A DNA stretch of 34,942 nucleotides from a bacterium (GTDB lineage: Bacteria; UBP6; UBA1177; JAGLDR01), in assembly GCA_023145475.1 (NCBI GenBank), contig JAGLDR010000095.1:1-34942 (forward strand), given 5' to 3'. A program made the translations under genes and the position numbers. Shown piece by piece: positions 26,974 to 34,009 of the stretch. The notes beneath the pieces are model-generated. The model did no database searches. It saw nothing but the letters and a program-made list of their open reading frames with translations, and was not told where the DNA came from. The stretch's first letter is position 1. Every line of letters begins with the position of its first letter.

Positions 26974-27066
26974 TGGCGGAGAAGGAGGGATTCGAACCCT
27001 CGGTAGGGGTATAAGCCCTACACACAATTTCCAATCGTGCTCCTTCGGCCGCTCGGACACCTCTCC
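26974..27066 (-). tRNA. tRNA-Ser (GGA)
   Basis: A 93-nt class II tRNA with a long variable arm and encoded CCA. The anticodon loop is TTGGAAA, giving GGA, which reads UCC and UCU. The acceptor GGAGAGG pairs with CTTCTCC and the discriminator is G, as usual for serine. It is the last tRNA of the cluster, before ffs. Confidence 0.95.
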
Positions 27067-27084: not shown

Positions 27085-27176
27085 TGGAGGAGAGATAGGG
27101 ATTCGAACCCTAGGAACCCCGTAAAGAGCTCACTTGATTTCGAGTCAAGCTCCTTCGACCACTCGGACATCTCTCC
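27085..27176 (-). tRNA. tRNA-Ser (CGA)
   Basis: A 92-nt class II tRNA with a long variable arm. The anticodon loop CTCGAAA gives CGA, which reads UCG. The acceptor GGAGAGA pairs fully with TCTCTCC and CCA is encoded, but the discriminator base is T; the other three Ser tRNAs here have G. The 5' 32 nt are also the 3' end of tadA, including its stop codon. Confidence 0.92.
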
Positions 27177-27660
27177 TTCTATCAACAGTTGCCTTTGTCC
27201 ATTGGTTTTTCAAACGAATTCGCCTGAAAAACTGCGACAACAACTGTGCAGATTCATCAGCTAATATCCCTTCAATAAGTTCAACCTGATGGTTAAGTCT
27301 TGCATCACTCAAAATTGAATAGAGCGATACTACTGCACCAGCTTTTGGATCTCGCGCGCCAAAATATACTCGCTGAATACGACTTTGTTGGATGATACCA
27401 CTGCACATAATGCACGGCTCTAGTGTAACAAAAAGTTCACACTGTTCCAAACGCCAACTCTTCAGTGTTTTCGCTGCATTTTCGATGGCAATCGCTTCGG
27501 CATGAGCCGTTGGAGAAGAGAGTCCCTCTCTCTGATTGTATCCTTTTCCTATTATCCGATTCTCAAAGACCACTACCGCACCAACAGGCACCTCATCCTC
27601 AAGCTCTGCTAATCGAGCAAGTCTGAGAGCCTCTCTCATATATTGTTCATTCCTATCCAT
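27145..27660 (-). CDS. tadA: tRNA-specific adenosine deaminase TadA
   Basis: Deaminates A34 of tRNA-Arg(ACG) to inosine so it can read CGU, CGC and CGA. The 171 residues have the zinc/proton-shuttle motif HAEAIAIENA and the zinc ligands PCIMCSG, with VPVGAVVV near the N-terminus, all typical of TadA. The ATG at 27660 lies only 11 bases from the 3' end of the tRNA-Arg(ACG) gene and has no ribosome site; an internal ATG at 27639 is a weaker alternative. The C-terminal residues RRRDVRVVEGA are encoded by tRNA-Ser(CGA) sequence and the TGA stop is in that tRNA's anticodon stem. The enzyme gene sits between tRNA genes in one transcription unit. Confidence 0.96.
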   Translation of the reverse strand: MDRNEQYMREALRLARLAELEDEVPVGAVVVFENRIIGKGYNQREGLSSPTAHAEAIAIENAAKTLKSWRLEQCELFVTLEPCIMCSGIIQQSRIQRVYFGARDPKAGAVVSLYSILSDARLNHQVELIEGILADESAQLLSQFFRRIRLKNQWTKATVDRRRDVRVVEGA

Positions 27661-27671
27661 TAAAATAAAGA

Positions 27672-27748
27672 TGGCATGCCCAGGAGGATTCGAACCCCCA
27701 ACCTCCTGGTCCGTAGCCAGACGATCTATCCAGTTGATCTATGGGCAC
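27672..27748 (-). tRNA. tRNA-Arg (ACG)
   Basis: A 77-nt tRNA with encoded CCA. The anticodon loop CTACGGA gives ACG, the TadA substrate. Acceptor GTGCCCA pairs with TGGGCAT, with a G-U first pair. It is immediately upstream of tadA. Confidence 0.96.
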
Positions 27749-27759
27749 ACCTAAATGTA

Positions 27760-27855
<96 letters not shown>

Positions 27856-27873: not shown

Positions 27874-27961
27874 TGGCGGAGGAGGTAGGATTCGAACCCA
27901 CGGACGCTCGCACGTCAACGGTTTTCAAGACCGCCGCCTTCGACCACTCGGCCACTCCTCC
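27874..27961 (-). tRNA. tRNA-Ser (TGA)
   Basis: An 88-nt class II tRNA with a long variable arm, discriminator G and encoded CCA. The anticodon loop CTTGAAA gives TGA, which reads UCA and, by wobble, other UCN codons. It is the first gene of the cluster. Confidence 0.95.
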
Positions 27962-28011: not shown

Positions 28012-28039
28012 ATAATGTTCAGAATTGTACTCTTGTCAA
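28012..28039 (-). promoter_or_regulatory. Promoter of the tRNA-tadA-ffs cluster
   Basis: On the minus strand a consensus TTGACA (28039-28034) is followed after 16 bases by CATTAT (28017-28012); an overlapping TATAAG lies three bases further on. It is about 50 bases upstream of tRNA-Ser(TGA). No other good promoter is visible within the cluster. Confidence 0.55.
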
Positions 28040-32383: not shown

Positions 32384-32418
32384 GTTTACAATAGATAAAT
32401 GTGTAAACAGTTTTTACA
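32384..32418. promoter_or_regulatory. Three overlapping half-sites upstream of the ammonia-lyase gene
   Basis: GTTTACA (32384-32390), TGTAAAC (32402-32408) and TTTACA (32413-32418) alternate in direction. The first two form a perfect 7-bp inverted repeat with an 11-base spacer; the last two form TGTAAA-N5-TTTACA, whose right arm is the -35 box. This is a likely operator. Confidence 0.5.
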
Positions 32419-32441
32419 ATTGCATTTCCTCTCTTTAATAG
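32413..32441 (+). promoter_or_regulatory. Candidate promoter of the ammonia-lyase gene
   Basis: TTTACA (32413-32418) and TAATAG (32436-32441) are separated by 17 bases, about 42 bases before the ATG at 32483. Confidence 0.45.
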
Positions 32442-32482
32442 TTATAGTGCTTCGTAAAATGTTTTTTTCAAAGGAGTGTATT

Positions 32483-34009
32483 ATGACAGTTGTACTTAGT
32501 GGTGGCCATCTAAGCGTAGAGCAGTTGGTAAAAGTTGCCCGTTTTAATGAAAAGGTTGAATTATCAGCAGACGCAATCGAAAGAATTCAAAAATGTCGCA
32601 AGATGGTGGAACGCAAGATTGAAAACCATGAAATAATGTATGGTGTTAATACTGGAATTGGTGAGTTTTCTGAAACAGTCCTTGAAGATGATCAGTTGGC
32701 TGAATTTCAAAAATATCTCATTTATAATCACAGTGCAGGCATTGGCGATCCCGCTCCACTTGAGTATGTACGAGGTGCAATGACTGGTCGTATTAATGTC
32801 CACGCACACGGAAATAGCGGCATGAGGTTAGTGATTACGCAAACACTTGTTGAAATGCTGAACAAAGGCGTAACACCATTCGTTTGCCAAAAAGGCTCTG
32901 TTGGAGCAAGCGGTGATTTAGCACCAATGAGCCAGATTGCACTCACACTGCTTGGCGAAGGTCAGGCATACTACAAAGGCGAGCTTCTTCCAGGGGCTGA
33001 GGCATTCAAGCAAGCTGGAATTGAAGTTCCTGGTCTTAAAGCCAGAGACGGTCTTGCAACAATTAACGGGAGCAATGTTCTTACCGCAATGAGTGCAATT
33101 TTGCTGTGGGATACTGAAAGATGGTTAAAGCAGGCTGAAATCGGTGCGGCAATGTCGCTTATCGCCCTCAAAGCAAACTTAAAACCCTATCTTCCTAATA
33201 TCCATGTTGCTCGTGGATTTGCTGGTGCAGTCAGAAGTGCAGCGGCAATCAGAAAGTGTGTCGACAACTCCGATTTGATAACAGGAAAGGTAAAAGTAAA
33301 GGTACAAGATGCCTATTCTATGCGTTCAACACCACAAATTATTGGTTCAGCTCACGATGCACTTAAATATGCAAAAGAGCAGGTTGAAATTGAGTTGAGC
33401 GGTGTCTGCGACAATCCAGTCTTTTTTCCTGATGAAGATATGGCACTCAGTGGCGCAAATTTTCAAGGGACACCCGTTGCACTGCCAATGGAGTTGATTG
33501 GTCAAGCAATTACAATGGTCAGCGTTCTCAGTGAGAGACGAATGAACCGCCTCAACAATCCAGCACTCAGCACTGGACTTCCCCCATTTCTGGCAACAAA
33601 CCCAGGACTCTTCAGTGGTTTAATGTTGAGTCAATATACTGCCGACACTCAAATTGTAGAACAAAAAATTCTCTGTACACCAGCGGTCATTCAATCAATT
33701 CCTGCTGCTGCAGATCAAGAAGATTTTGTCTCAATGGGAATGAATACCGCTATTAAGAACTTCCAGATTCTCGATAACGCCTATGGTATTCTGGGCATTG
33801 AGATGATGGCTGCAGCTCAGGCACTTGACATCAGAAAATATGAAGATGAAGGCGACGGCGTTTCAATCGCTAAAAAAGTTATTAGAAAACATGTCGATTT
33901 CCTTGATATTGATAGACCGCTCTATCCTGATCATACAGCGATGAAGGCATTGGTTAAATCAGGTGAGATTTTAGAGGAAGTTGAAAAGGTTTTAGGCGAT
34001 TTGGCGTAG
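32483..34009 (+). CDS. hutH: Histidine (aromatic amino acid) ammonia-lyase
   Basis: A MIO-dependent lyase that removes ammonia from histidine to give urocanate. The 508 residues contain the MIO triad ASG (142-144) in KGSVGASGDLAPMS, Tyr53 in YGVNTGIG, QDAYSMRSTPQIIGSAHDAL, NPVFFPDE, and the late QE-containing AADQEDFVSMGM block. In the substrate-selecting helix the residues are Asn82-His83 (YLIYNHSAGIG); His there fits a histidine lyase rather than a Phe or Tyr lyase, although HutH usually has Ser-His. GGAG lies 7 bases before the ATG at 32483; a longer open frame upstream runs through the promoter. No other hut genes are adjacent. Confidence 0.9.
   Translation: MTVVLSGGHLSVEQLVKVARFNEKVELSADAIERIQKCRKMVERKIENHEIMYGVNTGIGEFSETVLEDDQLAEFQKYLIYNHSAGIGDPAPLEYVRGAMTGRINVHAHGNSGMRLVITQTLVEMLNKGVTPFVCQKGSVGASGDLAPMSQIALTLLGEGQAYYKGELLPGAEAFKQAGIEVPGLKARDGLATINGSNVLTAMSAILLWDTERWLKQAEIGAAMSLIALKANLKPYLPNIHVARGFAGAVRSAAAIRKCVDNSDLITGKVKVKVQDAYSMRSTPQIIGSAHDALKYAKEQVEIELSGVCDNPVFFPDEDMALSGANFQGTPVALPMELIGQAITMVSVLSERRMNRLNNPALSTGLPPFLATNPGLFSGLMLSQYTADTQIVEQKILCTPAVIQSIPAAADQEDFVSMGMNTAIKNFQILDNAYGILGIEMMAAAQALDIRKYEDEGDGVSIAKKVIRKHVDFLDIDRPLYPDHTAMKALVKSGEILEEVEKVLGDLA

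Follow-up and report, generated by a model that had tools for sequence, protein, structure and literature searches.

In this study, we found that the tadA gene of the window, the window being the whole 34,942-nt stretch of DNA that was analysed, runs 32 bases into a tRNA-Ser(CGA) gene on the same strand. We consider it likely that this overlap is one instance of a side effect that keeps recurring where tRNA-Ser, tRNA-Arg and tadA genes lie close together in an old cluster, rather than a dedicated feedback switch. It is observed in none of the tadA loci of the same order, it has independent counterparts in ten or more other bacterial families and in several frames, and it mostly follows the crowding of the two genes.

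Overlap of tadA and tRNA-Ser(CGA)

The tRNA called by ARAGORN and the coordinates of the open reading frame (ORF) agree that the tadA stop codon lies within the same-strand tRNA, as the earlier note on this DNA had reported (Table 1). The TGA (27145-27147) forms nt 30-32 of the tRNA and falls in its anticodon stem. That note had counted ten codons and the TGA in the first 32 nt of the tRNA; the length is exact, and within it the final two nucleotides of an AGG codon are followed by nine complete codons (RDVRVVEGA) and by the TGA. The description of RRRDVRVVEGA as purely tRNA-encoded is likewise right for RDVRVVEGA, whereas the first arginine is encoded entirely upstream of the tRNA and the codon of the second straddles its 5' end.

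The TadA assignment is firm. The product scored 174 bits against the 150-bit cut-off of the NF008113 profile over residues 3-157, all of them encoded upstream of the tRNA, whereas the RibD profiles gave scores far under their cut-offs. The translation displays the HAE motif (TAHAEAIAIE), the PCxxC motif (LEPCIMCSG) and the C-terminal FFRxxR motif (FFRRIR), and the core through FFRRIR is complete 37 nt ahead of the tRNA. The tRNA-Ser(CGA) itself looks like a functional gene, because it is present in one copy in the assembly and its 5' half matches that of the tRNA of the relatives.

Table 1. Positions of tadA, the tRNA genes and the accompanying sequence features in the window
Feature	Position	Strand	Basis or remark
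Promoter-like TTGACA-16-CATTAT	28012-28039	minus	about 50 nt upstream of first tRNA; 10/12 consensus; weak
tRNA-Ser(UGA)	27874-27961	minus	ARAGORN; first tRNA of cluster
tRNA-Ser(GCU)	27762-27855	minus	tRNA call
tRNA-Arg(ACG)	27672-27748	minus	known substrate of bacterial TadA; tadA ATG follows after 11 nt
tadA, tRNA adenosine(34) deaminase, 171 aa	27145-27660	minus	ORF and NCBIfam NF008113 profile match
Strong hairpin GTTTTTCAGGCG-AATT-CGTTTGAAAAAC	27205-27232	minus	near 3' end of tadA core; z about -4
TGATAG, two out-of-frame stops	27179-27184	minus	just upstream of tRNA-Ser(CGA); relatives end at this place
tRNA-Ser(CGA)	27085-27176	minus	ARAGORN; first 32 nt carry tadA end
tadA/tRNA-Ser(CGA) overlap	27145-27176	minus	exactly 32 nt, tRNA nt 1-32
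tRNA-Ser(GGA)	26974-27066	minus	tRNA call; last tRNA of cluster

Organization of the tRNA cluster

The gene is embedded among five tRNAs on one strand, a setting that the earlier note leaves unmentioned, in the order tRNA-Ser(UGA)-Ser(GCU)-Arg(ACG)-tadA-Ser(CGA)-Ser(GGA). Bacterial TadA edits A34 of tRNA-Arg(ACG) (PMC10027721), and this substrate is present in the window directly ahead of the enzyme gene. The 11-nt spacer between them (27661-27671) holds no Shine-Dalgarno-like sequence, which most other genes of the window have, and the spacer is also short in the same-order relatives (8-12 nt). The promoter scan returned three sites against 1.9 expected in shuffled sequences, giving weak support to the promoter-like site in Table 1. 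A dedicated promoter of tRNA-Ser(CGA) within tadA was also considered; in a scan for the consensus only, no promoter-like site was reported between tadA and this tRNA, including the inside of tadA. With a promoter-like site ahead of the whole cluster and no reported one separating tadA from tRNA-Ser(CGA), transcription as one RNA is probable. As a separate observation, the complete order of the six genes was found across distant phyla, in the window and in the loci L006, L027, L030, L301, L319 and L326.

Same-order relatives and origin of the overlap

The relatives comprised 19 tadA loci of the same order (L004-L022) from two families, f2 and f3, the family of the window being represented by one genome. 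Conservation of the overlap, which the earlier note had proposed to test, was not observed: tRNA-Ser(CGA) stays just downstream of tadA in all 19 loci, though tadA enters it in none of them, its stop lying 0-12 nt ahead. In f2 the gap is 2-12 nt and the whole cluster is kept wherever the contigs extend far enough, and in f3 the stop abuts the tRNA in all five loci (gap 0) and no tRNA was detected within 700 nt upstream of tadA. At the level of the order, close relatives therefore end tadA before the tRNA and lack the C-terminal residues, an arrangement that the same note had named as evidence against its reading. In another family of the same phylum, three genomes carry tadA without a linked tRNA. 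Our scan of genome contigs gave 80 further tadA loci, apparently none from the order of the window (best identity 60%), with few linked to a tRNA and none overlapping one.

The window sequence directly ahead of tRNA-Ser(CGA), TGTTGATAGAA, retains TGATAG in another frame than tadA. Any insertion of 1 nt between 8 and 75 nt upstream of the tRNA would let tadA end 5 nt before it, as in the relatives. The window overlap is accordingly best explained by a 1-nt frameshift, whether real or an assembly error. The simplest change would be a deletion of 1 nt that shifted the tadA frame past the old stop, leaving TGATAG out of frame, so that the ORF would run on to the following in-frame stop, one that lies in the anticodon stem and belongs to the conserved sequence of the tRNA. 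Across the whole order, frame 2 of tRNA-Ser(CGA) carries a stop at nt 32.

If a base were instead missing from the assembly near the 3' end of tadA, the real gene would end at TGATAG, 5 nt before the tRNA. We regard such an error as unlikely. The restoring insertion could fall anywhere in the stretch just given, which includes an A5 run (TTTGAAAAACC), the tadA genes of the relatives end at this very place, and a single genome represents the family. However, valS, a leuC-type gene and a histidine ammonia-lyase type gene in the window are all full length, and a real deletion is favoured because these other long conserved genes are intact. The overlaps in the families f25, f14 and f17 are no errors, each being present in several genomes. 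Codon usage was also examined over the 37 nt that precede the tRNA; the raw score favours the annotated frame, mainly by penalising the stop codons of the other frames, for which reason the advantage was not counted, and with stop codons excluded the score does not tell the two frames apart.

Recurrence in other bacteria

For the wider survey, 142 genomes from 117 families outside the phylum were picked by the quality of their TadA match, from a TadA search with fetched loci; the sample leans to TadA proteins like that of the window, and its counts are not frequencies for all bacteria. A tRNA-Ser on the same strand within 250 nt downstream of tadA was found in 54 of the 117 families, with the anticodon CGA in 44. 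The substrate tRNA-Arg(ACG) occurred within 250 nt upstream in 30 families, and both tRNA neighbours in 22. Since tadA and tRNA-Ser stand next to each other in 54 families, their proximity greatly exceeds what chance would give. In a minority of the linked families, 10 of the 54, the ORF enters the tRNA, and in one of these it does so by a single base.

Among the overlapping families, f25 displays an overlap of 57 nt in all five genomes from two genera, f14 one of 25 nt in six genomes and 57 nt in another, and f17 one of 14 or 22 nt. Single examples came from f139, where the tRNA is tRNA-Ser(GGA), and from f157, f150, f205, f257, f120 and f207, in the last of which the ORF passes through the whole tRNA. 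The frames and the tail sequences differ between families, indicating that the tRNA-encoded tails are not homologous. Mapped onto the f14 tree, presence or absence of the overlap implies a minimum of 2 changes and a maximum of 5. Searching DNA for a pattern of FF codons a short way ahead of the start of a tRNA-Ser gave noisy results and served only to supply extra examples (L213, L217 and L226). In L213 (G333), the tadA ORF apparently spans the whole tRNA-Ser(CGA) and ends between it and the next tRNA-Ser.

The f25 genomes deserve separate mention. Their stop lies in the variable arm of tRNA-Ser(CGA) and reads TGA, TGA, TAA, TAG and TGA in L026 and L133-L136, and the overlap is kept at tadA identities of 76-84% (four of the five genomes, gapless comparison). 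A stop that is retained while its codon changes hints that termination at this position may be under selection, and the pattern suggests that the ribosomes of these bacteria do reach the variable arm.

Crowding as the probable main cause

The overlap mostly follows crowding. Of the 10 loci in which 13 nt or less separate the FFxxxR core of TadA from the tRNA start, 7 overlap, against 3 of the 43 with a longer distance (Fisher p = 8e-5, a value that serves as a guide as the test includes some related rows). Again, the conserved sequence of tRNA-Ser often holds stops that catch a run-on frame early, and the loss of the native stop therefore costs only a short tail. The window, with 37 nt from the core to the tRNA, belongs to the three late-starting loci that overlap all the same; as this distance leaves room for a stop, its overlap needs more than crowding as an explanation.

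Translation, tRNA processing and ribosome rescue

As long as the tRNA is neither folded nor cut, ribosomes translating tadA would terminate at the TGA inside it. Cleavage by RNase P at the 5' end of the tRNA (27176) would leave the tadA mRNA without a stop, and ribosomes on this nonstop message would need rescue by tmRNA or another system. Translation and tRNA maturation thus probably compete on the shared transcript, as the earlier note had proposed; this part of its reasoning is sound, it has a published parallel in selB/selC (PMC8124441), and the tmRNA gene that it calls for is present in the genome (193 bits). The further step to a feedback device is not supported, and the competition appears to be tolerated rather than evolved for that purpose, since the cell can probably do with small amounts of TadA. 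Given that the core is complete 37 nt before the tRNA, the enzyme can probably dispense with the nine residues that the tRNA encodes. By analogy with truncated ArfA, a TadA set free where the message is cut should retain activity, as its catalytic core and FFRRIR are both complete before the tRNA.

Rescue by tmRNA is uncertain, because SmpB gave no match at E <= 0.001, an absence that is itself uncertain in an assembly that is 94.6% complete. A candidate RNase P RNA was detected in the genome (G000, contig C172:692-888, L352); its 197 nt cover the whole class A model and score 56 bits, below the 100-bit cut-off, suggesting a reduced or divergent RNA or a partial match. The hairpin near the 3' end of the tadA core has a 75-nt fold of -27.9 kcal/mol, and hairpins of comparable strength were noticed in some of the f25 and f14 overlap loci. 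It was considered as a protector of the 3' end and set aside, being absent from the f2 and f3 relatives and of uneven strength elsewhere.

Feedback, coupling and tail as alternatives

An evolved feedback, in which the speed of tRNA processing sets the output of TadA so that the enzyme and the mature tRNA are alternative products, as has been proposed for SelB and tRNA-Sec, seems to us improbable. It would gain from the repeated origin of the overlap, from its retention in all five f25 genomes, whose stop at a single tRNA position takes three forms, from the cluster that links tadA to its substrate tRNA-Arg(ACG) in 30 of the 117 families, and from the published selB/selC analogue. Nevertheless, the absence of the overlap from all 19 same-order loci and its lability within f14 speak against such a device, and crowding largely accounts for the overlap. 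Moreover, the overlapped tRNA-Ser(CGA) has C34 and is not a substrate of TadA, the A34 target tRNA-Arg(ACG) lying on the other side of tadA, and there is no apparent sensor of TadA activity. On these grounds, we do not retain the feedback device of the earlier note.

In a broader form, the tRNA-Ser/tRNA-Arg(ACG)-tadA-tRNA-Ser cluster as a whole could be a functional coupling. Full translation of tadA would then be possible only from the fresh, uncut precursor, the output of TadA would be tied to the synthesis of its substrate tRNA, and the overlaps would be the tightest form of this arrangement. We hold this to be a slim possibility. That RDVRVVEGA is a useful extension of TadA, such as an RNA-binding tail, is very improbable: the tail is basic at its start and f25 retains a constant one, but the families use different frames with unrelated sequences, relatives do without such residues, and the constancy in f25 is dictated by the tRNA sequence.

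Comparison with known systems and significance

The overlapping genes selB and selC (tRNA-Sec), for which the model of RNase P cleavage and nonstop mRNA was proposed, though not tested (Mukai 2021, PMC8124441), are direct prior art for the tadA overlap. In Dyella and Luteibacter, the selB stop lies inside tRNA-Sec, whereas close relatives have it ahead of the tRNA (PMC8124441). In both cases, an ORF that encodes a tRNA-handling protein has its 3' end overlapped by a same-strand tRNA downstream of it, the stop falls inside that tRNA, relatives have the stop ahead of the tRNA, and the nonstop model is alike. They differ in that SelB binds the overlapped tRNA, while the target of TadA is tRNA-Arg(ACG) instead of the tRNA-Ser(CGA) that its gene overlaps. 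In selB/selC the complete tRNA is commonly nested, whereas partial overlap is the rule for tadA, with f207 excepted. Clade conservation is also missing in the order of the window (0/19), although f25 conserves its overlap in five of five genomes. The tadA case is thus a same-strand overlap of a tRNA with the 3' end of an ORF in the broad sense, and not a pair of the selB/selC type.

A second parallel is ArfA, where RNase III cuts the message close to the 3' end of the reading frame and so yields a nonstop mRNA whose product is normally tagged by tmRNA, and where the truncated protein was reported to be active (PMC3985003). A nuclease cut near the coding 3' end with a resulting nonstop mRNA is proposed for tadA as well, and a truncated active protein would be possible; in ArfA, however, the cut is made by RNase III and not by tRNA processing, and the regulation was shown experimentally. 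Mitochondria also contain nested or overlapping tRNA and protein genes from which the tRNA is released by processing (cited in PMC8124441). There too, tRNA sequence lies within an ORF or straddles its end, though in mitochondria this belongs to organellar compaction, whereas the present genome is bacterial and measures about 2.3 Mb, with local packing in a tRNA cluster.

The overlap by itself is a curiosity, and the tadA/tRNA cluster is the more useful by-product of this analysis. No report of the cluster was found in the literature searched, a search to which most subscription papers were closed. The linkage of tadA to tRNA-Ser, and often to the substrate tRNA-Arg(ACG), in many families, together with the repeated slippage of the stop into the tRNA, is apparently undescribed. 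Gene callers that bar protein genes from overlapping tRNAs may truncate or drop tadA in such genomes. As a repeated natural experiment, these loci also make it testable whether tRNA processing limits the expression of an mRNA on the same transcript.

Elsewhere in the window, the ORF at 32399-34009 on the plus strand matched a histidine ammonia-lyase subfamily model with 533 bits against a cut-off of 524, and it also matched tyrosine/phenylalanine aminomutase and ammonia-lyase models below their cut-offs.
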